Source: a virus. Taken from it: DNA of 39,559 bases. The DNA is taken from positions 1-39,559 of IMG/VR virus record IMGVR_UViG_3300014492_000004; one strand, 5' to 3'. Of the stretch, positions 20,885-37,533 are shown piece after piece; position 1 is the stretch's first letter, and each line of letters begins with the position of its first letter. The notes beneath the pieces are model-generated. The model ran no database searches, was not told where the DNA came from, and saw only the letters and a program-made list of their open reading frames with translations. Position numbers and translations under genes: made by a program.

Positions 20885-22147
20885 TTAGCTGATTGCGATG
20901 CGGACAGATCCCTCCGAGTACAGCGGGGCGATGCCATAATAGACATCGGTGCGGTTGGTGAACATGTCGCGCACGGAATCGAACATGCGGACGAAACGGA
21001 TGGAGACGCCGATCTCTTTGGACCGCGCTTCCATCGCCATGTCGACGCCTTCCGGCACGTCTCCGGGGAAGGACACGAAGGCATGCGCCTGGCGAGTCCA
21101 TAAGATGCCCTGTGCGGTGGACACGCCAGCAAGTGCGGATTGTCCGCCCGCCGCGGTGTTGTAGACGTTAACCAGGGCGCCAGCTCCCGGCGAGTTGGTA
21201 ACGTTCTGGAACTGTCCGGAAGGAACGATGGCCGGCAGGATCTGGACCGTCCCGGTACCGCCCGCGCTGGTCATGTTCTGCTGAACGACGAACTGCTGAA
21301 GCGCACCGGTCGACGTGCGGTTCTGCGGGTTTACCGCGAACACTCCGGCGAAGCTGATAATGTCGCCAACCAAGAAGTAGTTGGTTACACTTCCGAGCCC
21401 GTTGAGGTTGATAGCGGAACCGGTCTGGCCACCGCCGACTACCGCGGGAGTGCCTCCGAGTGCGCCGATTACCTGCACCGGGGCGTTCTGGTCTACCATC
21501 CAGTCGAGAGACAAGGCGTTGTCAATCTGCCCGGTCTTCCACTGTTTAGTGAGAGAATCCTTGGGATTGTAGAACTGTTTGGTGTAGGTGTTCCAACCAG
21601 TTCGCGCGTTGGAGTTGATGACCAAGTTACGGGCGCGGCGGAATTTCGCCTTGTCCAGGGGGAAGCCCATCTCATCGAGCTTTTGGGAAGCCTGCGAATA
21701 GATGTTGAAGGCGTCCGTACCGCCCAGTCCCGGCGTGGTGCCTGGGGTTCCGACGAAGTTCGCCGTGTTTATCATCATCGTATTGAGCGCCCTGAAATCC
21801 AGCAGGTTGCTCAACGCGGTCATGTACGGGTCAAGGTATCGGTCCTGGAAGTCGTCGAGGCTGAGAAACTTTTCCGAGGTCGAAAACTCGAAGTCGATAC
21901 CCGACTGTTGATTGATGGTTACCGGAACTTCCGTGTCTATCATCGCCTGCGGGGAGTATGCCTGCCCGTCGCGCGCGATCGCTCGTGGCGGCTTGCGGAC
22001 AAATATCGTATCTCCGATCTTGCCGCCCTTCTTGCCAAACTCCTGGTCTAGGTCGCGGTACATGTTCGGCACCACAACGCAATTGTTTTCCAGGACTTCC
22101 AGTTTGGCGTAGGTGATTTCCTGCCGCGTCAAATACTGGTTTGCCAA
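20885..22147 (-). CDS. Major capsid protein, P22 coat family
   Basis: The 420-residue protein is read from TTG 22147, seven bases after AGAGGG. The N-terminal ITYAKLEVLENNCVVVPNMY and KKGGKIGDTIFVRKPPRA resemble the P22 gp5 HK97-fold entry region. Residues about 240-340 form the inserted I-domain: VGDIISFAGVFAVNPQNR, LQQFVVQQNM, VQILPAIVPSGQFQNVTNSP. The end includes AHAFVSFPGDVPEGVDM and IRFVRMFDSVRDM. It forms the icosahedral head with the scaffold encoded just upstream. A hairpin with a GUGA loop precedes its ribosome site. Confidence 0.88.
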   Translation of the reverse strand: MANQYLTRQEITYAKLEVLENNCVVVPNMYRDLDQEFGKKGGKIGDTIFVRKPPRAIARDGQAYSPQAMIDTEVPVTINQQSGIDFEFSTSEKFLSLDDFQDRYLDPYMTALSNLLDFRALNTMMINTANFVGTPGTTPGLGGTDAFNIYSQASQKLDEMGFPLDKAKFRRARNLVINSNARTGWNTYTKQFYNPKDSLTKQWKTGQIDNALSLDWMVDQNAPVQVIGALGGTPAVVGGGQTGSAINLNGLGSVTNYFLVGDIISFAGVFAVNPQNRTSTGALQQFVVQQNMTSAGGTGTVQILPAIVPSGQFQNVTNSPGAGALVNVYNTAAGGQSALAGVSTAQGILWTRQAHAFVSFPGDVPEGVDMAMEARSKEIGVSIRFVRMFDSVRDMFTNRTDVYYGIAPLYSEGSVRIAIS

Positions 22148-22177: not shown

Positions 22178-23140
22178 TTATCCGTGGCGAATCTTTTTGA
22201 ATTCTTCGAAATCGTCGGCTTCGGCAGTGCTCTTTTTGGGAGGCGGCTCGATACCGTTCAGTTGCCGGCCAGGGGGCGCGGCCTTCGACACGGGGGTCCG
22301 TAACTTTTCAGGAGGAGTGTCGGATCGGCCGGCGGCCGGAGTGCGCAGCGTGTACCCGATTATGGCCATTTGCATGAGCCGTGCATCGTCGCTGGCCAGC
22401 CCGCGAATCCTATCTGCCTCGGCGGGGTTTCCGGCCAGGTGATAGTAGACGTCGGCAGCGTTGTCGATCTCCAAGAGAGCCTTTTGTATATTCGGGAGGG
22501 ATAGCCCGACAGCCAGATTTCCGGCCTTTTCATCGAAGTCCGCATATTTCGCGCGGGCTTCTACCATTCGCCGGGTAATGGTCTGTTTGGTGGTTTCCTG
22601 AGCGACGCGCTGCTTTTCAACAGCGGACCTCTGCTCGATCTTCCACCCGGCGCGATCCACGAGATAATCCTCGTACATCTTGCCTGGTGCCGATCCGTCG
22701 TAATCCTTGGCTTTCGGCCCATCGTCGGCTTGCGCAGTTGCTGGGGCGGCCTGAGTTGCTGGCGCGGCGGCTGCTGGCTCGGTTGCCGGTTTGCGAGTCC
22801 GGTATTCCTGCAATTCTTTTTCGAGCTTGTCGAAGCGTTCGTTGGACTGCTGCTCCCAGGTCTTACGGAGGATCGCGTCGGCCTCCCCGTGCTTCCCGTT
22901 GGCGCGTAACTGCGCGATGCGGGATTCAAGGGTGCGCTCTCCCTTTGGCTTCTCTTCTTTTTCCTGAGTTTTGGGTTTCGCGGTTTCCGAATCCGCGACA
23001 GTTTCGGATGCCTTTGCGCTGGCGGGCGAGGGCGGCTCTTTGGGTTCGGCGGCCGGTTCCGACGCTTTGCGATGCTGTTCCCGCAGAGCTTTGAACTCTT
23101 CGGGGCTGGACGCTTCGCTAAGCGGCTTCAGTTCTTCCAT
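22178..23140 (-). CDS. Scaffolding protein
   Basis: The 320-residue protein is read from ATG 23140, five bases after GGAG; a GTG two codons earlier is possible. It is highly charged and low-complexity for its first 150 residues (EPAAEPKEPPSPASAKASET, KTQEKEEKPKGERTLESRIA). Helices follow (KTWEQQSNERFDKLEKELQE). The C-terminus is DDFEEFKKIRHG, recalling the basic coat-binding helix at the end of P22 gp8. Directly upstream of the coat gene, it fits the internal scaffold. It is the first gene after a promoter and a noncoding stretch. Confidence 0.82.
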   Translation of the reverse strand: MEELKPLSEASSPEEFKALREQHRKASEPAAEPKEPPSPASAKASETVADSETAKPKTQEKEEKPKGERTLESRIAQLRANGKHGEADAILRKTWEQQSNERFDKLEKELQEYRTRKPATEPAAAAPATQAAPATAQADDGPKAKDYDGSAPGKMYEDYLVDRAGWKIEQRSAVEKQRVAQETTKQTITRRMVEARAKYADFDEKAGNLAVGLSLPNIQKALLEIDNAADVYYHLAGNPAEADRIRGLASDDARLMQMAIIGYTLRTPAAGRSDTPPEKLRTPVSKAAPPGRQLNGIEPPPKKSTAEADDFEEFKKIRHG

Positions 23141-23151
23141 TTTCACTCCGC

Positions 23152-23870: not shown

Positions 23871-26222
23871 TTATTGACTCATATCCAACCATACAGAACC
23901 ATTATACAAAAGGGAAATTACTGATCCAGAGGGATAACCAGTAGCAATATTATTTGCCGGATTAAGATGGGATTTGATTGCTACTGCACTTCCTCCACCT
24001 AGAGCAAAGGTGTTCGCCCCAGCCTGGAGGGTGTGAGCCAGTAAGATCTGCACCTGCATACCTGTCACCGCTTGCTGAGACAGCAGTATCAGGCTGGAGA
24101 ATCTGCCAACTATAGCATTGTTGGCTCCTGTTTCGGACGCAATGAAATTGATCGCCGGGCTCTGGACGGTAGCCGCCGTCGAGAAATTTCCCAAGTAATC
24201 TATATATCCTTTAGCCGTATAAGCACAAGATGGGCAACCGCTTACGTAGCGCCATTGCCAATTGCCACCAACTGTATAATTGTCCGAGTAACGATTGCCG
24301 CCGTTCTCTGATTCGGTGGCTATATTAGTCCCGTCAGTAAGTGTCTCTAATCCGTTGATCTTAAAACCTACATAATTATTCGTGTAGTCCTGGTAAGCTC
24401 CTCGCAGACCTCCAGCAGGGAAAGATGTCTTCCATCCTTGTGTGGCGGACACGTAGTTGTAATTGTTTCCAGTTATGACGTGAAGATCATCTTGGGCGAT
24501 AGAGATAGCGGTCGAATATTGTCCGGGAACCTGCGCAAGAAACTGATTTCCTATTGCGATAAGCTGTGCAGATCCTCCTCCGGCCTGCCGAATATCGATG
24601 AATTTAGATCCGAATGAAGATAGGCCCGGTGGCGTTACGTGATTGTTCATGAGGCTGATAACTAGTTCATTCGTATTCACGTCGCTCGCTTGGACGAGAA
24701 ACGGGACCGTCCCTCCTAAAAGCATTCCATCCAGGGTAATATGAGTCAGCCCTGAAAAATCATTGTCGATGTATACCGGCGTGGCTGATACGGACGCAGA
24801 AATGTACCCTCCATGAACCGCGAGTAAGCCACGGCTGAAATAGATTGCATACGGAACGATGCTACCGCCTTCGCTGAAACTGGAGTTAGTAACGTCCACG
24901 AGATGATAGCCCGCGCCACTGAATGTGGAAGAGTCCATATTGATCCCCCAAGACTCGAAGTCCCACTGGGAGATTTTTGTAAAACTTCCGGTGCCGTCCG
25001 CTCCAGCTACGAAGTTGAAGCATTGATACAAATAGCAGAGACCTTGTTCAAATTTTTGATCGTCAGCCCGCCCTACCTGTATGCCCACAACGCCAGCGTT
25101 AAATAGCCAATTAGACCCGATGTTTCCGAAGGGCCACAGATGAATTGCCCGAAAATAATTAGAGTCCAAAGATCCGTCAATGGAGATTCCTATGTCGTAA
25201 GCTGAAATGTCCAGATTCTCAAAATGACTACGGCCCGTATAGGCTTGCCATGCGCTACTGGCATAAGTTCCTTTGTAGCTTATTCCGTCCCAAGCACTCA
25301 CAATCGCAACGTTTTGAACATTAGCATCCAGTGTGTCATTCAGGTTGAGACCTGTCCAATGGGCAAGCAGCGTGCGGTTGGCGACCCCGAAGTTTTGAGG
25401 GAATACAATTTGAAAGTCTCGGAAGGATGGGCCAGCGATATTTTCGACCGGCTGGCCGCTGGAGCCACAGTCGGTATTGAACACCGCCGCAGTTGGATCA
25501 CTAGATGTTTGAGGAAAAGATGTTGTAGGCGCAATTATACTTCCCCGTCCAATTCCCACAACACTAGAATATTGCCAATTGGAACAAAGTGTTATTTTAC
25601 TACTAACTTTAAACGAACCAATTGGAATAAGAATTTCACCATTAACAGCTTCTGCTGCAGTTGCTGCCGCTTGAATAGCAACTGTAGAGTCCGCCACTCC
25701 GGTCGGATCGGCTCCGTATGTGCGTACGTCGAAAACCGGAGGATTCGTCATCGTCACCCAATTTGCAGGTACCGAAAGCGGGCCAGTGAATCCGAGTATA
25801 GGAGTGGAGGAAAGAAACACAAATACGGTTCCCTGTGAGTTCGCGACGGAGTTTCCGGTAAGCACGAGGGAGAAATTTCCTTGAATCGGTGGGGCTAACG
25901 CCGAGAATGCTTGGGCGGTAGAACCCAGATTTACAGCTGCCCCGGCAAGCGCGTCCACGCCGGCCGAATCGGTAATCCTCACCGAATAACCGGCAGTTGG
26001 CGATGGCGTACCCGGTACCGTTTCTACCTGGGTGATGAAATACCCGTTGCAGCAACCTTGCAGTTTGGCTGGAGTCACAGGCACAGACCCATTGCTGCCG
26101 GCGGTCCAATTGAAGGCCAATACCCAATTGCCGGACGTGCCGAGTTGCGAGATGGTCTGCTGTACTCCGGCCGCGCCGAACGCCGTACCGGCTAGAAAGA
26201 CCGCGAGTAGTGCCTTCTTCAT
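23871..26222 (-). CDS. Tailspike with Sec signal peptide and beta-helix
   Basis: The 783-residue protein starts at ATG 26222 after AGGAGGT. It begins with signal peptide MKKALLAVFLAGTAFG, then an N-terminal domain (about 18-160) nearly identical at its start to the next spike (GVQQTISQLGTSGNWVLAFN). At about 165 comes the pectate-lyase-type phrase DVRTYGADPTGVADSTVAIQ, which opens a right-handed beta-helix spanning most of the chain (IDGSLDSNYFRAIHLWPFGN, VDVTNSSFSEGGSI). The C-terminus is a small beta domain. It probably binds and may cut host surface glycans. It is the last gene before the terminator and differs from the second spike after the shared N-terminus. Confidence 0.85.
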   Translation of the reverse strand: MKKALLAVFLAGTAFGAAGVQQTISQLGTSGNWVLAFNWTAGSNGSVPVTPAKLQGCCNGYFITQVETVPGTPSPTAGYSVRITDSAGVDALAGAAVNLGSTAQAFSALAPPIQGNFSLVLTGNSVANSQGTVFVFLSSTPILGFTGPLSVPANWVTMTNPPVFDVRTYGADPTGVADSTVAIQAAATAAEAVNGEILIPIGSFKVSSKITLCSNWQYSSVVGIGRGSIIAPTTSFPQTSSDPTAAVFNTDCGSSGQPVENIAGPSFRDFQIVFPQNFGVANRTLLAHWTGLNLNDTLDANVQNVAIVSAWDGISYKGTYASSAWQAYTGRSHFENLDISAYDIGISIDGSLDSNYFRAIHLWPFGNIGSNWLFNAGVVGIQVGRADDQKFEQGLCYLYQCFNFVAGADGTGSFTKISQWDFESWGINMDSSTFSGAGYHLVDVTNSSFSEGGSIVPYAIYFSRGLLAVHGGYISASVSATPVYIDNDFSGLTHITLDGMLLGGTVPFLVQASDVNTNELVISLMNNHVTPPGLSSFGSKFIDIRQAGGGSAQLIAIGNQFLAQVPGQYSTAISIAQDDLHVITGNNYNYVSATQGWKTSFPAGGLRGAYQDYTNNYVGFKINGLETLTDGTNIATESENGGNRYSDNYTVGGNWQWRYVSGCPSCAYTAKGYIDYLGNFSTAATVQSPAINFIASETGANNAIVGRFSSLILLSQQAVTGMQVQILLAHTLQAGANTFALGGGSAVAIKSHLNPANNIATGYPSGSVISLLYNGSVWLDMSQ

Positions 26223-26430: not shown

Positions 26431-28821
26431 TCACCATGGATTGCAACTGTAAACGAAAAAATGGCCATTGGCCGATGTAAAAGCGTTGAAACTGGCAGAG
26501 GTGGCGCTGAACCCAACATTAGGTAGAAAGGTTCCAGTCGTGGTGTCAGTAAGCGTGCAAGCGTATCCTCTCGCCGACGGCAAATTCCCCAGAGTTAGCG
26601 TACAGGTAGACTGCCCGGACTGGAACGTCCCGGACTGACTGAGGGAGCTGTACCCAACATTGGTCACCGTCCCACATCCCCCGAAAGTCGGCGCTCCAAC
26701 CCCCGTAGGGATCAACTGGTAATACCCATTCAGCGCCACGAACGGCTTAGTGAATCCCCACCCGTTAAAGTAATTGTCGTTGACCCAATTGTTACTATCC
26801 CCGCCGCCTCCCGTGTCGAAGAGAATAGCGGTCCCGGTGTTGCTGCCGATCGGCGGGAAGTAGTTCCCTACCGCCATAACTTTACCGCCGTCATGGTTGT
26901 AGATGGCGGGTATCAGGTAGTTGGTCGATGTAGAAGAATTCAGAATAATGTTGTCGTTGAAAAGCAGATCTCCAGGGATTACATTGCTGACGATCTGCCA
27001 CGAGCCACCCTGCCCCAGAAGGAACGTTACATTGGTGATTCCCAAGACACCGTTGTTGGAGAATAGTGGAGTTTCAGTGGAAAATACCACCCCGGTTTGC
27101 GTGCCGGCGGTCGACGTAAGGGTGATGGATATGTTGGAATTCCACGTCTGGATGGTATAGGGTAGGCCATTTATCAGGACCTGCCCCCCCGCAGCAAGCC
27201 CGGCAAAGTTCAGCAACCCAGATACGTATGACACCGCCGTTCCGGCCGTATTTACAATTCCGGTGTTAATCGCGTTCGAGATCAACCCGGACGAAATATT
27301 CAGAGTCCCATTTACTGTGAGAGTCGCCACCTGGCCAAACCCCAGTTTCCACACTCCGCTTGCCACTGAAAGCTGACCACAGTTCAGCTTAATCACCCCA
27401 TTAGCCGTATCTACCATCAGGCTCGAAACTGTTGCAAAAGTACAACTTCCACGCCCGTATGTCGGGTCATACTCGAAGTCCATCGTCACGGGGAAATTGG
27501 AGTTTTTGAAATTGGTCATCGCGAGATCATACAGCCCCGCCGTCCATAGAGCTGTCCCATGGGCGCCCCAAATCTGACCTTGGTTCCCGGTCATGTCGTG
27601 CGGATAGAACTGGTAGTTAGACAACGTTTCTTCGTTGTCCGATCCGTTCATCACAATCCCGTAGTTGAAGGCGGAAATCTCGATATTTGACAGCCTCACC
27701 TGAGTGCCGATTTCGACGAAAACCCAATTGCCGCCTGACACTGGACTTGTGGTCCCGCTGCACCCTCCCGTGGCGCACACGTATGTGATGCTAGCAACGG
27801 AGGCGAAAGCCCCGGCTGCATACGTATTGCCAGAAACCCAAGCCGGGGCTACCCCGTTTGGATGGATGCTGATTCCGGTCATAGCCTGGGTGATCTTGAC
27901 GCTGTCAATGGAGGCATAGTCGCACCCATAATAATCACCGCAAGCAATTCCTGGAGGAAAGTTTACCAGTGAGGCGTAGTTGGTCGTATCCGTGTTCTGG
28001 AAACGGATAGAGATGTCTCGGACCTTAGGAACACCTGGGCACAGATCACTTGTAATGGGGCAATTTGCATCCATTGCGTAGTTCAATACAAGCACGCCAA
28101 CCGCCGACAGATTGAACGACGGCGGCACTAGTATTACAGATCCTTGCCCATCGAAGACGATCGACCCCGTGCCGATGCAGGCATCAGTGAATTTGTATGT
28201 GCCGTAGGGGAACAGTACCGTGCCATTACCCATGGCTTGCGCCGCGGCGGCCGCGGAGTTACACGCGACCGTCGAGGACGAGACACCCGTGGGATCGCCG
28301 CCGAACACCCTGATGTCTACCACCGGGGAATTCGTCAGACTCAACCAATTCGTAGCTGCGGTATTGATAGCGGCCACGTTGACAGTCCTCTGTTTGGCGA
28401 TAAAAACGTATACCGTACCGGTCGCACTGGGTACCGAATTACCGGACAGCGAAAGCGTGAACGTTCCCTGAATGGGAGCCGCCGTTGTCGCCGCCGAGAA
28501 TCCTTGAGACAAAGTGTTACTCAGGGAAGACGCGGCCGAACCAAGCATATCGACTCCGGCCGAGTCCAGGATCTTGACGGAATAGCCCACAGTGGGTGCC
28601 ACCGCCGCGCCTGGGACAGTTTCCACCTGCACGACGTAGTACCCGTTACAGCAGCCTTGGAGCTCCGCTACCGTATTCGGTACGTTCCCGCTTCCGTCTG
28701 CCGTCCAGTTGTAGGCGAGCACCCAATTCCCGGACGTGCCGAGTTGCGAGATGGTCTGCTGTACTCCGGCCGCGCCGAACGCCGTACCGGATAGAAAGAC
28801 CGCGAGTAGTGCCTTCTTCAT
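26431..28821 (-). CDS. Second tailspike with Sec signal peptide
   Basis: The 796-residue protein starts at ATG 28821, inside the portal stop. The N-terminus repeats that of the first spike (MKKALLAVFLSGTAFG signal, then GVQQTISQLGTSGNWVLAYN). At about 168 it has VDIRVFGGDPTGVSSSTV, which opens a beta-helix. The rest is unrelated in detail to the first spike. It contains a carbohydrate-binding-like insert with the phrase YVCATGGCSGTTSPVSGG (about 335-352). The C-terminal 60 residues (STCTLTLGNLPSARGYACTL ... HFFVYSCNPW) have paired cysteines. Two different receptor-binding spikes suggest a broader or variable host-surface range. Confidence 0.85.
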   Translation of the reverse strand: MKKALLAVFLSGTAFGAAGVQQTISQLGTSGNWVLAYNWTADGSGNVPNTVAELQGCCNGYYVVQVETVPGAAVAPTVGYSVKILDSAGVDMLGSAASSLSNTLSQGFSAATTAAPIQGTFTLSLSGNSVPSATGTVYVFIAKQRTVNVAAINTAATNWLSLTNSPVVDIRVFGGDPTGVSSSTVACNSAAAAAQAMGNGTVLFPYGTYKFTDACIGTGSIVFDGQGSVILVPPSFNLSAVGVLVLNYAMDANCPITSDLCPGVPKVRDISIRFQNTDTTNYASLVNFPPGIACGDYYGCDYASIDSVKITQAMTGISIHPNGVAPAWVSGNTYAAGAFASVASITYVCATGGCSGTTSPVSGGNWVFVEIGTQVRLSNIEISAFNYGIVMNGSDNEETLSNYQFYPHDMTGNQGQIWGAHGTALWTAGLYDLAMTNFKNSNFPVTMDFEYDPTYGRGSCTFATVSSLMVDTANGVIKLNCGQLSVASGVWKLGFGQVATLTVNGTLNISSGLISNAINTGIVNTAGTAVSYVSGLLNFAGLAAGGQVLINGLPYTIQTWNSNISITLTSTAGTQTGVVFSTETPLFSNNGVLGITNVTFLLGQGGSWQIVSNVIPGDLLFNDNIILNSSTSTNYLIPAIYNHDGGKVMAVGNYFPPIGSNTGTAILFDTGGGGDSNNWVNDNYFNGWGFTKPFVALNGYYQLIPTGVGAPTFGGCGTVTNVGYSSLSQSGTFQSGQSTCTLTLGNLPSARGYACTLTDTTTGTFLPNVGFSATSASFNAFTSANGHFFVYSCNPW

Positions 28822-28900
28822 TGAATACCTCCTGGCGCGGGCTGGAGTGCTGCCTGTTGCGCCATCTGCTGCTGGTGCTGCATCCCTGTGACGTGCTCCA
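28731..28900 (-). repeat. Duplicated portal-end/spike-start segment, copy 2
   Basis: This is the partner of 26132-26301, offset by 2599 bases. Here the portal part belongs to the intact portal gene and the spike part to the second spike. Confidence 0.92.
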
Positions 28901-30929
28901 CTGCGTCCGTAGCTTCCGCCAGGTGCGTGACCACGGCATCGTGCGAGTGATCCATCTGTTTTTCGATCATGGACCGAATCAGCTTTAGTTTCTCCACGTC
29001 CACCTTGCCCTGCGTCTCGATGCTCTTGGTCTGGAGCTTCAGTGCCACCTGCTGCAAAAGCTGTTTGGCCTGCTGAAGTTGTTGAGTCAGCACCGCGTTC
29101 TGCTGCTGTAGTTGCGCTGGGTTAACCCCGCCCTTCTTGGCCTGCAAAGCTTGCTGAATCTGCGGCGGCATGGCAAGCTCTGCGATCTCGGCCAGGTCTT
29201 CGTACCCACGGAGCCGGAATATCGTCGGCAGGTAGAGCACGGCAAGCTGGGGGTCGGACTGCACTAACGATGTGAGGAAGTCGTCTTCCTCGTCCACCTT
29301 GGCCGCATAGGATTTCCCGGCTTGGATGATGACACCGTAGTCTCCGTCGTCGATCTTGATATGCGGCTGGCCCTCGTATCCCGGCACCTCGGGATTCACG
29401 CCGGGCTCCATATCCATCGTGATTGGCACGGTCTGGGATTGCCGCTGGTCTTCCTTCATGACCTTCCAGATCCGCGGCGTGTCGGCCAGCGAAAGCATGA
29501 GGTCAATCCCCACGCGGCCGGTATGCCACATAGCCTGTAGTCCGTTATCCTCGTAGTGAAAATTGGCCAGGGAGGTCTGCTGCGATCGGCGCTCTACGGC
29601 GATCCCTGACAGGTCGGCTTGCGATGGCTTGGTTACCGTGTCGACGTATCCGATAGCGCCCTTGAGCGCGTCAATACCCTGTGCCGTTGCTTCGGTCGAA
29701 CCCTGAATCATCGGCTCCGCATTGGCTCTTTCTGGGGGGGGCGCCAGGTTGCCTTGGATTGTGACAGGCTCGGCCTCGAGATAATAGTGCCGGCGGCCGT
29801 CGCGCCACTTCTTGTCCTTGAACTGGCCCTTCGTCCCGAGCCAAAGCGCGTCGTTAACGTCGGCCATGCGCGTTGCGGTCTTGGACATCCCAACGTTAAT
29901 GAATTGCTGTGGATCTCGAGCGTAACGCACCGCAGACACGTAACGTCGCTTTCCGTTACTGATTCTCTCCAGACCAAGCGTGGGGATGATGCCGATCCAT
30001 TCGGAAGCCCAAATCGACTCTTCGAGGCGTTTTTGACCATCTACGATGTCACGATGGACAATCCGCTCCGTCACCGGCCATGAGCGCGCCGGCTCGTCGC
30101 CTTCCATCAAGTCTTCGTCGGCCACTTCGGAGCCATCGGCCAATTGGTGCATCTTGGTTTCGACCTTCTCGACCCACCAATAGACGGCGACCCATACTGT
30201 GTCCTCGTCGCCCCATTCGTTGAGTTCCTCGCCGTCGGGGAACGGGAACGGAACGGCCTCGTAACCGGGGAATGCGCGCTCAAACTCTCCACGCTTATAG
30301 CGCTTGCGCTTGAAGGCATATTCGGCGTCGGAGTAGTCGAGTTCCTGAACGGCCGGGTCGAAATAGACGCTGAGAGGGTCGGGAACTCGCTTTAGCCGCG
30401 GCTCCTGGAGCCCCTTTCGACCGACGTACTCACAGGTCCACTCGACGTACCCGAACCCGCCAGAAGCCGCGTAAGCCTGGGCGCAGTCAAAGGCCAGGTC
30501 AGCGTGACTTTCGTAGAGGACATGGCGGAATTTACCCTCGATTATCTCGGCGGTCTGCGGGTTGCCCTCATCGCCCGCCGATACCTTGGGCTGTGGCCTG
30601 TCCTGGCGCGCCTGGTTTACAATCTGGTTTATCAGCGGATTTAGGCGGTCCATCGTTAGCGCCGGCACCCAGTCGGCGTCACGATTCTGCTTCACCACCG
30701 GGTCCCACTGATCGCTCGGGTCGCCGGACACGAAACGCAGATCCTCACGGAAGTCCTTGCGAGGGATCTCCCACCCAGTGCGGGCCGCCTCGAAGCGGTC
30801 GCGCATGGTCTGCATGTACTTTTCTTGGTCTTTCGTGGTTTTCTGGGAGGTTTTCTTTTCGGGAGGGGACTCGGGCCGCTGGATATTGTACGGCTGCGTG
30901 CCCGAGTTGGCGTAGGTGTTACGGCTCAT
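28818..30929 (-). CDS. Portal protein, P22 gp1-like
   Basis: The 703-residue protein forms the dodecameric vertex for DNA packaging and exit. The N-terminal region has TMRDRFEAARTGWEIPRKDF and ALTMDRLNPLINQIVNQARQ. The wing and stem region includes DPLSVYFDPAVQELDYSDAE, RKRYKRGEFERAFPG and a glutamine-rich helical C-terminus (LQQQNAVLTQQLQQAKQLLQ) that in P22 forms the internal barrel. Length and order agree with P22-type portals. The last 60 residues are duplicated before the first spike. A strong hairpin with a GUGA loop precedes the start. Confidence 0.88.
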   Translation of the reverse strand: MSRNTYANSGTQPYNIQRPESPPEKKTSQKTTKDQEKYMQTMRDRFEAARTGWEIPRKDFREDLRFVSGDPSDQWDPVVKQNRDADWVPALTMDRLNPLINQIVNQARQDRPQPKVSAGDEGNPQTAEIIEGKFRHVLYESHADLAFDCAQAYAASGGFGYVEWTCEYVGRKGLQEPRLKRVPDPLSVYFDPAVQELDYSDAEYAFKRKRYKRGEFERAFPGYEAVPFPFPDGEELNEWGDEDTVWVAVYWWVEKVETKMHQLADGSEVADEDLMEGDEPARSWPVTERIVHRDIVDGQKRLEESIWASEWIGIIPTLGLERISNGKRRYVSAVRYARDPQQFINVGMSKTATRMADVNDALWLGTKGQFKDKKWRDGRRHYYLEAEPVTIQGNLAPPPERANAEPMIQGSTEATAQGIDALKGAIGYVDTVTKPSQADLSGIAVERRSQQTSLANFHYEDNGLQAMWHTGRVGIDLMLSLADTPRIWKVMKEDQRQSQTVPITMDMEPGVNPEVPGYEGQPHIKIDDGDYGVIIQAGKSYAAKVDEEDDFLTSLVQSDPQLAVLYLPTIFRLRGYEDLAEIAELAMPPQIQQALQAKKGGVNPAQLQQQNAVLTQQLQQAKQLLQQVALKLQTKSIETQGKVDVEKLKLIRSMIEKQMDHSHDAVVTHLAEATDAVEHVTGMQHQQQMAQQAALQPAPGGIQ

Positions 30930-30983: not shown

Positions 30984-31271
30984 TTATTCCTCGTCGGCCG
31001 CCGTCTCGCGGTTGGGCTCGTCGTCTTCCTTATCCGTTCCAGATGGGAAGCAATGCCCCATGACCGCCGCAAGGTGCTCTTGCGCGTGCTTCATGGTCGG
31101 GTGGATGGCTTCCTCCATCTCGTGATCCTCCATCGGGCCGCCGCCCTGCCCGCCGCGCTTATACTTCATGTGCGTTTCGGACACGAGGCCGCCGTCGGCT
31201 CCGGTCGCGGGCCTGAACTCCATGCCCACTACTTCTCCCTTGCGGGATCTGCTGCTCGAATTACCGGCCAT
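30984..31271 (-). CDS. Hypothetical polar protein
   Basis: This 95-residue protein starts at ATG 31271 after GGGAGAAAAT. It is Gly/Glu/His-rich and probably disordered (GGQGGGPMEDHEMEEAIHPT), with a helix around MKHAQEHLAAVMGH and an acidic tail ending in ADEE. It is the last gene before the portal. An assembly role is possible; no family is recognised. Confidence 0.6.
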   Translation of the reverse strand: MAGNSSSRSRKGEVVGMEFRPATGADGGLVSETHMKYKRGGQGGGPMEDHEMEEAIHPTMKHAQEHLAAVMGHCFPSGTDKEDDEPNRETAADEE

Positions 31272-31380
31272 ATTTTCTCCCGTCCTTAATCGCTGCTACG
31301 GCGTACGCGAACACTATCACGACACAGAGGCCAGCGCCGAGGCCGAGCACGATACCCCAGAGCTTCTCGATTATCGGCAT
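31261..31380 (-). CDS. 39-residue single-span membrane protein
   Basis: ATG 31380 overlaps the upstream stop (TAATG). The peptide has one strong membrane helix (GIVLGLGAGLCVVIVFAYAV, residues 9-28) and a positive tail (IKDGRKYGR). It overlaps the next start by 11 bases. It could be a pinholin-like or regulator peptide, but the gene neighbourhood (chaperonin, portal) gives no lysis context. Confidence 0.58.
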   Translation of the reverse strand: MPIIEKLWGIVLGLGAGLCVVIVFAYAVAAIKDGRKYGR

Positions 31381-31856
31381 TATGCGGCCTCCAGCGGAAC
31401 TTGTTCGTTATCCAGAACGCACAGGACGTGCTGCTCCTCGTGGCAGATAGTGTACTCCTTCCCATTGATAATGACGTCGTTGGCCGGGATTCGCGGGTAG
31501 AGGATAATGTCCCCCGGCTTGACGCCCATCTCACAGCGCCCAACCTCTCCGGTTGACTCCAGATCTCCTCCGCACTCGAAGCATCGCCACGCGCGCCCGG
31601 CGACCCGCTGCGCCTCGGCGCCACACTGCACACACTTGGCGAATATGATCCGGTCGCCCGGGCCGACGGCCAGCACGCGGCCGCGGCGAATGCCCCGCGG
31701 CCTATCCGCGCGCCAGCGGCCGTCGCCAGTCATGTGCATCCCGGACTTGCGAACGGTTTCAGTCTCGGGGACGTGCTCGACGAGGCAGAAGTCTTGAAGG
31801 TGCTTCAGCTTCTCAATCGCGGCCGTGATGTTGCGGTACCCTTCTTCCCAGGCCAT
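31380..31856 (-). CDS. GroES-like co-chaperonin with zinc ribbon
   Basis: The 158-residue protein has GroES-like elements: an N-terminal strand LQDFCLVEHVPETETVRKSG, a mobile-loop-like stretch (about 38-55), then GIRRGRVLAVGPGD. The chain resumes with GVKPGDIILYPRIPANDVII and ends with YTICHEEQHVLCVLDNE. Between the two halves (about 72-110) lies an insertion with C75-x2-C78 and C92-x2-C95, a zinc-ribbon pattern. T4 gp31 is a phage GroES analogue that helps fold the capsid protein, so a similar role here is plausible. ATG 31856 overlaps the upstream stop. The insertion is the odd part. Confidence 0.72.
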   Translation of the reverse strand: MAWEEGYRNITAAIEKLKHLQDFCLVEHVPETETVRKSGMHMTGDGRWRADRPRGIRRGRVLAVGPGDRIIFAKCVQCGAEAQRVAGRAWRCFECGGDLESTGEVGRCEMGVKPGDIILYPRIPANDVIINGKEYTICHEEQHVLCVLDNEQVPLEAA

Positions 31857-32191
31857 TAGCCCCCCCCCAAAGGAATAATCAGGTCATCATCCACCGGAAG
31901 CCGGGAAACGTTTTGGTATGGGCCTCGGCTAATCGGATGAGGAAAGAATGACCCTGACCCGCCCCCGACCGCCACGAACTGTTTCAGAAGGGAGGTTTCT
32001 TCGAGGTTCTGTGGATTAATGCTGTACACTCCCGAGATCGTGAACAGGTCACCAACTGCCAATTTTTCGATTCGGTTGACCAGAGGCACCGGCACCGGCG
32101 TGGGAATTGCCTTCGGCAGAACCTTGGCAAGCAGCGGGGCCGCCGCCGCGCCAGCAAATAGGCCGAATAGTCCTCGACGGCTGAGTTTCAT
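31856..32191 (-). CDS. Tat-signal protein with coat I-domain-like segment
   Basis: The 111-residue protein is read from ATG 32191, six bases after GGAGG. Residues 1-35 look like a twin-arginine signal (KLSRRGLFGLFAGAAAAPLL). Residues 45-105 match the phage's own coat I-domain block. Here it reads VGDLFTISGVYSINPQN, LLKQFVAVGG and GPYQNVSRLP; in the coat it reads VGDIISFAGVFAVNPQN, LQQFVVQQNM and GQFQNVTNSP. So a single domain akin to the surface-exposed part of the capsid appears to be exported folded. The role is unknown; a receptor decoy, decoration or superinfection effect are options. Confidence 0.7.
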   Translation of the reverse strand: MKLSRRGLFGLFAGAAAAPLLAKVLPKAIPTPVPVPLVNRIEKLAVGDLFTISGVYSINPQNLEETSLLKQFVAVGGGSGSFFPHPISRGPYQNVSRLPVDDDLIIPLGGG

Positions 32192-32355
32192 ATTTCCCTC
32201 CCAAACTCCAGCGTGTAGGACTTCGCCAGCTTGTCCGCGATCCGGGGATTCGGAAGGAAGTCGAGTAGTACCGCGCCGGCCTTTTGGCCAGGGAATCCGT
32301 ACATCACCCGCCACCACTTCTCATTTCGCGCGTTTCCGTCGGCCCAGTAGATCAT
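32188..32355 (-). CDS. 55-residue hypothetical protein
   Basis: ATG 32355 opens a frame ending at a TGA that overlaps the next ATG. It reads MIYWADGNARNEKWWRVMYG, then a helical PRIADKLAKSYTLEFG. The ribosome site is weak, but overlap with both neighbours and normal amino-acid use support it. No function can be assigned. Confidence 0.5.
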   Translation of the reverse strand: MIYWADGNARNEKWWRVMYGFPGQKAGAVLLDFLPNPRIADKLAKSYTLEFGREI

Positions 32356-33361: not shown

Positions 33362-33703
33362 CTACCGCTTGATTATCGGGCCGAATCTCCAAGCGTTGCT
33401 GGAAAGGGGATTCTTCGGTGGGTGTTTCTCGTAATGCGATCCGGTCAGCCACCATCTACCCTTTGAGTCTAGTTTGGCCACTTCCCATTCTGGAGGTCCA
33501 GAGGGCTCATTGAGTCTAACCCAGTAGAATCCAGGTAAAGACGGTTCTCCATTGCCGAATTCGGCCAGCATCTCGCTGGTGACAGTCACCATTTTCGCTG
33601 GGGGGCGAATAAATTGAGGGCTGGTTATTATCTCAATAGTGTCTCCCAAGCGGTACCCATGCGCATGCCATTTTTTAACTGCCTCTCGTTCCATTTCCGT
33701 CAT
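33362..33703 (-). CDS. Hypothetical phage protein with Trp-rich end
   Basis: The 113-residue protein is read from ATG 33703, which overlaps the terminase stop (ATGA) and follows AAAGGGG. The N-terminal part is helical; the second half (GFYWVRLNEPSGPPEWEVAK and GRWWLTGSHY) is beta-rich with a spread of Trp. It resembles small phage proteins of unknown function with a YWV...WEVA...RWWLTG pattern. No enzymatic motif. Confidence 0.6.
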   Translation of the reverse strand: MTEMEREAVKKWHAHGYRLGDTIEIITSPQFIRPPAKMVTVTSEMLAEFGNGEPSLPGFYWVRLNEPSGPPEWEVAKLDSKGRWWLTGSHYEKHPPKNPLSSNAWRFGPIIKR

Positions 33704-35196
33704 CGCATCCACCCCTTTCCTCCAAACCGGTCGTGCCCGCGCTCGTCGTCGCTGCTGCTCGATTGTAGCGCGACCGGCGCCGCGAAGGTGAGGGCCAGCG
33801 CGTCTCCGTCATCGGGCGAAGGTGCGCCGCGCTTTTGCATCTCCAATTTGCTCTCCAGCACGAGTTTATTACTCTTGTTCATGTGAAATCCAGGAGACGT
33901 TAGGTCGATTTCGAGTTTAATGTCGTTCGGGTCGATAGACCCGCGAGCCAGCCATTCTTTCATGGCGTTCCACATGTAGGCCCTCTGGTTCTCCTGGTGG
34001 ATATCCGGCGATCGGCCTCCAAAGTTGACCTCCTGGATGTTATCGAATCCGAGGGTGTGAAGGCGCTCCACGATAGGCGATCCGAACGCGGAGTCGGCGA
34101 ACATCATCGCGACTTTGTGAGAGGGCCGTTCGTCTCGGAGGATTTGAGCGAGTCTACCAATGAGAGCCGGCCGGTCGATAGCCGAGCCAGGAATTCTGAT
34201 CGGACTCGGCACGAAAACTCCAGGTACCGCTGATAGTCCTCGGCGGAATCGCAGAACATGCCAGGCAGCCCCTCCTCCGGAGACATCGAAGCCAGCAACG
34301 AGGGGCTCATCGTCTAGCGGAGTGACGGTGCGTAGTTGGGCCCCCGCGACCAGATCTTTGCCGATGAACTGCGATTCGTCCTGTTGCGGGGCAAGCCCAC
34401 GGACACGGACGCGCACAAAGTCGGAGTCCTCGCCGTAATCCTGTATCCACTCCGCGATGGTCTGCTTGTTCGAGATCTTCGAATCGCGGCTGTCAATTGA
34501 TCCGTAGTTCCACCTGTGCCGGCGGCTGCCGAAGTTGATCTCGTAGAACCGTCCCGAGTTGCGCGTCGGGTTTCCGAACACGAATATCATCGGCTCCCCG
34601 TCAGTCAGTCCGCCCTCGGCCACGTCGTAAATTGCGTCAGGGATCGCGCTTCCCTCGTCGAACACGTAATAGCTGGTCGAGGTCTTGGCGTGCTGTCCGG
34701 CGAACGCTTCCGAGTTCTCCTCGTTGGAGCTTTGGCACGCCACGAACCAAGATTCCGGCCGCGCCTTGTGGCGCATGGCCGCTGTGCCGATGTCCCAGGA
34801 CTTGGCAGTGGGAGCCAGCTTTGCCCATCGGCGCACGGCTGCCCAGGTCTTGGTTTCAAGCTGTGTGAAGGTGTTTGCGGTGACGGTGCCCTGAGAGTCC
34901 TCCCGGGTGTCTTTGATCCAATTAACGAGCCACGCGGCCAGCGTGGATTTGCCAATGTCGTGACCGCTGGCGCGCGTCAGGCGAATCGGCGCTACTGCGG
35001 TATGTCCGTCAAATCGGCGATGGCGAACCTCGCGGCCGATCTCTTGGAGAACCTTAGTCTGCCACTTATCTGGGCCTTCGCTGCCGGCCAACTCCCCAGC
35101 ACCCCACGGGAACATATCCAGCACGTACCCCAGCGGGTCATCGTAGTAGTTGGCGAGCTCGGCGGCCATCCGGGCGCCTGGTGATTCCGCGGTCAT
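33700..35196 (-). CDS. terL: Terminase large subunit
   Basis: The 498-residue ATPase-nuclease packages DNA into the prohead through the portal. The Walker A-type loop is SGHDIGKST (77-85) and Walker B is YYVFDE (176-181). A coupling motif VFGNPTRNSGRF follows. The nuclease half has VAGFDVSGGGAAW, MMFADSAFGSPIVERL and LKLEIDLTSPGFHM, whose acids likely hold metal. Length and order are normal. ATG 35196 overlaps the upstream stop and the stop overlaps the next ATG. The unique GHDIGKS variant replaces the usual GxGKS form. Confidence 0.88.
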   Translation of the reverse strand: MTAESPGARMAAELANYYDDPLGYVLDMFPWGAGELAGSEGPDKWQTKVLQEIGREVRHRRFDGHTAVAPIRLTRASGHDIGKSTLAAWLVNWIKDTREDSQGTVTANTFTQLETKTWAAVRRWAKLAPTAKSWDIGTAAMRHKARPESWFVACQSSNEENSEAFAGQHAKTSTSYYVFDEGSAIPDAIYDVAEGGLTDGEPMIFVFGNPTRNSGRFYEINFGSRRHRWNYGSIDSRDSKISNKQTIAEWIQDYGEDSDFVRVRVRGLAPQQDESQFIGKDLVAGAQLRTVTPLDDEPLVAGFDVSGGGAAWHVLRFRRGLSAVPGVFVPSPIRIPGSAIDRPALIGRLAQILRDERPSHKVAMMFADSAFGSPIVERLHTLGFDNIQEVNFGGRSPDIHQENQRAYMWNAMKEWLARGSIDPNDIKLEIDLTSPGFHMNKSNKLVLESKLEMQKRGAPSPDDGDALALTFAAPVALQSSSSDDERGHDRFGGKGWMR

Positions 35197-36930: not shown

Positions 36931-37533
36931 TTACGTGCTTCGTCCCTCATCCGGGGCCGGCAGTTCCTTCGGCAGCCTGGCCAACCTCTCCGCACGCTTC
37001 GCCCGCAGTACGTCGGCGTCGATCACTGTCGATACCGTGGCGTCGATGTTAAGTCGGTCGCCGTACTTGTCTGGACGGAGCTTCGACAGCAGCCATTTGC
37101 GCGTGTCGATCTGTAGCCGGCTGCGTTCGACCATATCCCCGGTCACGACTTTAACCTCTTCGACTTTTTCCGCTTCCGCGCCGGCGCACATGTCTGATCC
37201 ATCCTCGCTGTGTCGCCATCGGCGAATCCACCGCAGATCTTTTCCGCACAGCGAGCAGGCTCGGGAGATCTCCTTGCGCTCTGTCTTATCGCCAGGCCGG
37301 CACTCGTCAGCGAGCGCGATTATTTCGTCAGCCAGAACATCCAAACCTTCCGCTCTCGCGCGCGCGTATCGCTCTGAAAACAAAGCATCCTTTACGGCCC
37401 AGCCAATTACCGTGGTCGATGCAGGCATGTGGTCATCGAGGCAGATGTGGCGCAGGGTTTCGCCGGCTGCAAGACGCGCGCATATCTCGTCGGATATATC
37501 AGGGGTGTAGAGCGATGGTCGGCCGGCTGTCAT
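36931..37533 (-). CDS. terS: Terminase small subunit with zinc-ribbon insertion
   Basis: The 200-residue protein starts at ATG 37533. The N-terminal RPSLYTPDISDEICARLAAG and GETLRHICLDDHMPAS, then TVIGWAVKDALF, form the DNA-binding helices of this TerS family. The oligomerisation part is SRLQIDTRKWLLSKLRPDKY (138-157), which is very typical. Between them, at about 85-125, an insertion has C93-x2-C96, H108 and C116, a possible zinc site. The protein recognises the packaging start and feeds DNA to TerL. It is separated from terL by about 1.7 kb, with a regulator and an OMP gene in between. Confidence 0.82.
   Translation of the reverse strand: MTAGRPSLYTPDISDEICARLAAGETLRHICLDDHMPASTTVIGWAVKDALFSERYARARAEGLDVLADEIIALADECRPGDKTERKEISRACSLCGKDLRWIRRWRHSEDGSDMCAGAEAEKVEEVKVVTGDMVERSRLQIDTRKWLLSKLRPDKYGDRLNIDATVSTVIDADVLRAKRAERLARLPKELPAPDEGRST

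Follow-up and report, generated by a model that had tools for sequence, protein, structure and literature searches.

The 39,559-nucleotide stretch of viral DNA analysed here (hereafter the window) carries a gene for a GroES/Cpn10-type co-chaperonin that probably bears a folded metal ribbon in its roof. More surprising than the ribbon is the swapping of roofs among near-identical phages: as judged from sequence comparison, whole roofs are exchanged at this site of the protein, with the ribbon as one version, and roof type is independent of the coat protein in our sample. The source virus infects bacteria, and the gene lies within a P22-like morphogenesis block (Table 1).

Table 1. Features of the co-chaperonin gene and of the surrounding morphogenesis block, in window coordinates.
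Feature	Position	Strand	Description and evidence
GroES/Cpn10-type co-chaperonin gene	31380..31856	-	158 aa, ATG start; Pfam PF00166, PHROG 3188, AF2 model
N-terminal barrel half	31656..31811	-	Residues 16-67, mobile loop included; phmmer against 1lep (M. leprae Cpn10) residues 4-48
Mobile-loop equivalent	31692..31766	-	Residues 31-55; low-pLDDT AF2 blocks; alignment to the mobile-loop motif in other GroES
Roof insert	31536..31655	-	Residues 68-107, C4 zinc-ribbon-like; strands E68-75, E81-85, E99-108 (DSSP of AF2 model)
First putative zinc knuckle	31623..31634	-	C75-x2-C78(-G); both Cys invariant in alignment with ribbon-bearing homologues
Second putative zinc knuckle	31572..31583	-	C92-x2-C95(-G); both Cys invariant in alignment with ribbon-bearing homologues
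C-terminal barrel half	31413..31535	-	Residues 108-148; Pfam Cpn10 positions 53-91 = residues 107-146
P22-type coat protein, assumed main folding client	20885..22147	-	Pfam P22_CoatProtein E 1.3e-21; PHROG 283 major head protein E 1.9e-55
Head scaffolding protein	22178..23146	-	PHROG 8865 E 6.3e-16
Spike-like protein	23871-26222	-	Strand of the GroES gene
P22-type portal protein	28818..30929	-	Pfam P22_portal E 3.2e-109
Probable terminase large subunit	33700..35196	-	Walker-type motifs and position
Terminase small subunit	36931-37533		

The assignment as a GroES-type co-chaperonin, proposed in a first-pass annotation made from the sequence alone, is borne out by profile searches. Pfam PF00166 (Cpn10) matches the window protein in two stretches (E 2.6e-8, 34.2 bits against a curated cut-off of 21.1), PHROG 3188 ('co-chaperonin GroES') matches it with an E value of 1.9e-6, and in the phmmer alignment with M. 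leprae Cpn10 (1lep) the second half of the protein comprises residues 107-147. The two sequences from which the annotation had recognized the barrel halves, RGRVLAVGPG and VKPGDIILYP, fall at residues 58-67 and 112-121 and leave about 44 residues between them; the halves are indeed split in the roof hairpin by an insert with two C-x2-C pairs. In barrel, strand order, mobile-loop position and profile the protein resembles bacterial GroES and mitochondrial Hsp10, whereas their roof hairpin of about 13 residues gives way here to some 40 residues that contain two CxxC pairs, and the N terminus has an extra stretch compared with bacterial GroES. A hairpin of ordinary length is thus absent from the window protein, but it is not needed for membership of the Cpn10 family, since T4 gp31 also lacks it (PMC6318259).

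As predicted by AF2 for the monomer, the window protein adopts the GroES β barrel and no competing fold was obtained. The model superposes on 3nx6 with a Z score of 11.8 and an rmsd of 1.4 over 75 residues, and it matches GroES from GroEL complexes with Z 9.5-11.2. The model of a ribbon-bearing homologue, L004, is likewise a GroES barrel (Z 12.9, rmsd 1.3 over 75 residues against 3nx6). T4 gp31 is matched with Z 7.3-7.4. Mean pLDDT is 78.9 for the window protein and 81.0 for L004. The input alignment had 29 rows, mostly ordinary GroES, with the insert covered by three sequences only, and because of this composition the barrel prediction is not independent evidence. L004 also exceeds the Pfam Cpn10 cut-off, as does L172, a relative without the ribbon.

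In both models confidence is low at the mobile loop. The annotation had named a loop incompatible with GroEL as a refuting result; none was obtained, and a mobile-loop-like stretch is present at the expected place. Its motif, SGMHMTG, is atypical (compare GGIVL), and near relatives have the canonical ASGLVIP. A further candidate motif, H139-E-E-Q-H143, was considered as an HEXXH-like metalloprotease signature and rejected; it belongs to the last barrel strand and reads REEQH in L172.

The insert proper measures 40 residues (68-107) in the alignments, which corrects the earlier estimate of about 38. It resembles a C4 zinc ribbon both in its conserved Cys and in its predicted strands: in the models of the window protein and of L004, extra strands in the roof carry the two knuckles, with three strands around them, and the ribbon region of L004 reaches pLDDT values >90 with the topology of the window model. 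A CxxC..CxxC pattern did not occur in any of 200,000 random 40-mers of ordinary composition, and arose in 0.36% of shuffles of the insert's own residues. Matches of the insert to known ribbons are weak (eS27, E about 0.1; Zn_ribbon_LapB, E 0.12; MCM ribbon, Z 2.1). Binding of a metal by the roof ribbon, presumably zinc, is inferred.

The ribbon is known from three contigs of two lineages, the window included. The two relatives, L001 (91% identical) and L004 (37-38%), both encode the protein upstream of a similar portal gene, and all four Cys are found at homologous positions in both, invariant across the two lineages. Between the window protein and L004 the insert is the least conserved part (10/40 residues identical, compared with 26/41 in the C-terminal half), so that in this alignment the metal-site pattern is kept while the rest of the insert drifts. 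Between the window and L001 the insert is the only unchanged part, with nucleotide differences at 0/120 positions versus 20/330 in the barrel (Fisher p 0.003). With about 3 synonymous and 17 non-synonymous differences in this pair, dN/dS is uninformative; these counts would also fit recombination or uneven sequence quality. A tblastn search with the window protein gave no match in 50,697 phage records or 72,556 plasmids, one scan of bacterial genomes with a three-sequence profile returned ordinary GroES only, and 398 genomes of one phylum held no match joining barrel and ribbon; a cellular GroES with such a roof may occur elsewhere. In a portal-led search of viral contigs, the fetched portals (about 30% identical), those of L003 and L004 apart, had no adjacent GroES gene detectable by the family HMM.

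In the window the GroES gene sits between the probable large terminase and portal genes, in a block that also holds the spike, scaffold and coat genes; the name large terminase is provisional because its best PHROG (5902) is unannotated. Neither the window nor any of five relatives gave a Cpn60 (GroEL) match, although these records may be incomplete; the lid would thus need the GroEL of the host. The start codon of the GroES gene is preceded by a nine-G run at 31857-31870 (eight G in L001), which may be an unusually long ribosome-binding site or a site of slippage, and overlaps the stop codon (TAATG) of a 153-aa ORF on the same strand (31856-32317, minus). Read from an internal Met, this ORF starts with the Tat-signal-like sequence MKLSRRGLFGLFAGAAAAPLLAKVLP; its residues 88-141 match residues 260-320 of the phage's own coat protein (BLASTP 5e-10), and the coat-like part is cut short in the L001 counterpart. 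A small conserved ORF between the GroES and portal genes (30984-31271, minus), with the pattern EFxPATGG..SxTHMxxKRGGQGGGP, recurs in L001 (2040-2318) and L004 (4265-4528) and has no family match in PHROG or Pfam.

A pattern search and two profile scans showed that five other contigs, L172, L175, L176, L203 and L204, also carry this gene; in the barrel and roof comparison L201 stands for L176 and L202 for L175 (L202 being the same gene as L175:3983-4516). The gene order terminase-GroES-portal can be read directly in L172, L175 and L176, and the motifs PxNDVxIxG and EEQHVLAIL are common to the window protein and all five relatives. The ribbon is absent from each of them, and their roofs are nevertheless longer than the ordinary 13 residues: L172 has VGQFATLADGQRLVET, with a close variant in L175, L176 has MRWPLGQVPNMKLPPGSESRFVGHHFELT, and L203 has EEYDSELMFDGAHRVVNL, with a close variant in L204. 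L175, L176 and L203 thus combine a near-identical barrel protein with three unrelated roofs; those of L175 and L203 are equal in length and share 6/24 residues. Barrels of L176, L175, L203 and L204 differ from one another by 18-26 synonymous versus 1-2.5 non-synonymous changes (pN/pS about 0.02-0.04), a ratio that indicates strong purifying selection on the barrel sequence. The mobile loop, known as the contact to GroEL, hardly varies in L175, L176 and L203. Identity between L175 and L203 (contigs L214/L215) rises from about 90% upstream to 99% downstream; the change occurs at the GroES gene or just after it and suggests a nearby recombination event. The L175 protein ends in a Cys-rich tail (..KCGCCASCERECAMDI), which the near-identical L176 and L203 proteins lack.

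Other phage GroES proteins, for example those of PHROG 3188, belong to the same family, and most of those fetched have 13-residue roofs: in the parsed sequences the roof ranges from 8 to 14 residues, and the remaining ones showed no Cys pair. The phage GroES encoded upstream of a terminase-like gene at L190:3968-4372 is more distant and contains a single CxxC in its roof (SAKCGECGKAKNPYPM), which could bind a metal between subunits.

In this sample the coat protein does not predict the type of roof. The coat is 100% identical in L175, L176 and L203, and their morphogenesis block is 98-99% identical over the 8 kb that follow the GroES gene downstream; a tie between roof and coat was therefore rejected, and within these 8 kb no other virion gene showed a marked difference between L175 and L203. 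Near-identical barrels and identical coats joined to unrelated roofs are what identifies the roof as a swap site. This independence argues against tuning of coat folding and favours either an outward interface or mere tolerance of the loop.

The first-pass annotation had pointed to T4 gp31 as a lid that adapts the chaperonin cage to the folding of the coat, and had suggested that the insert could change cage height or cofactor contacts, two effects that are conjectural. In such a scheme seven ribbons that seal the dome or line its inside would improve the folding of a particular client, chiefly the coat protein. The position of the GroES gene among head genes is in line with this, as are the precedent of gp31, a phage lid adapted to a large coat protein (PMC6318259), and the coats of ribbon-bearing phages, whose identity to the coats of relatives lacking the ribbon is only about 56-60%. 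Identical coats beneath three different roofs nevertheless weaken the proposal, and the gp31 analogy runs the opposite way, as gp31 has a longer mobile loop and no roof loops at all (PMC6318259). The window protein shares with gp31 (PDB 1g31) the nature of a phage-encoded GroES-fold lid and is expected to use host GroEL, but it is not of the gp31 type: its roof is enlarged rather than absent, the structural match is distant (Z 7.4), and the phage is P22-like, not T4-like. We thus regard chamber tuning as unlikely.

We judge it equally improbable that the roof is simply a tolerant loop, in which any insert sparing the barrel would persist and the ribbon would be carried along neutrally. Roof length and sequence do vary freely among near-identical phages, while purifying selection on their barrel is strong. 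Retention of the four Cys in L004 despite divergence of the remaining insert speaks against pure tolerance, however, and so do the unchanged insert in the comparison with L001 and the 13-residue roof that ordinary phage GroES mostly keep over a wide range.

Much less probable still is that the Cys pairs serve metal storage, metal delivery or redox sensing instead of structure, a possibility raised by Helicobacter pylori GroES (HspA), whose C-terminal His/Cys domain handles nickel and forms disulfides (PMC5116745), and by the unrelated Cys-rich tail of L175: CxxCG...CxxCG without His is the usual pattern of a structural ribbon, the added metal-binding part of HspA is C-terminal whereas the putative C4 ribbon occupies the roof, and no metal-handling gene is found nearby among the genes scanned. 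That the gene no longer encodes a co-chaperonin but a component of the virion or the packaging machinery built on the GroES fold, in which the ribbon mediates interactions, is similarly remote; the atypical mobile-loop motif and the location between terminase and portal would fit, but near relatives keep the canonical mobile loop and the similarity of the barrel to GroES is high.

Zinc alcohol dehydrogenases, to whose superfamily there are weak structural matches, likewise have a zinc lobe inserted in a GroES-like barrel. There the structural-zinc lobe follows the VRPGDKV strand and is not in the roof, and these enzymes do not form sevenfold lids.

Because homology, fold and genomic context agree, we favour a product that acts as a GroES-like subunit of a sevenfold lid on host GroEL and, like T4 gp31, would aid the folding of phage structural proteins. 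In the window lineage the conserved Cys and the models point to replacement of the roof β-hairpin by a C4 zinc ribbon, so that in the closed lid seven ribbons would surround the apical hole as a crown. Heptamer formation, binding to GroEL and the function of the crown are inferred here. Tentatively, the most likely function of the roof is an outward one, as a docking or shielding surface that may meet something other than the coat, for example a host factor; we prefer it because roof type ignores the coat while the mobile loop stays constant. A more specific version of this outward role is conceivable though doubtful, namely that the roof acts as a cassette of hypervariable sequence. Phages alike in barrel, mobile loop and coat would then exchange whole roofs (hairpins of 16-18 residues, a loop of 29 residues and, among more distant members, the C4 zinc ribbon) because the top of the lid faces a changing partner, for example a factor of the host or one of its defences that recognizes the phage lid.

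To our knowledge, no metal domain has previously been known at the top of a chaperonin cage. The literature searched, which did not extend to the work on virioplankton chaperonins by Marine et al. 2017, contained no report of a ribbon in a GroES roof.

The roof of GroES is usually regarded as a passive plug. If it is a cassette in these phages, the co-chaperonin would have a second, outward function apart from folding. Exchange of the roof as a unit, on a constant barrel and with a constant coat, provides natural variants for probing what the roof does, and the zinc-ribbon version could act as a fixed point of attachment on the lid of GroEL.
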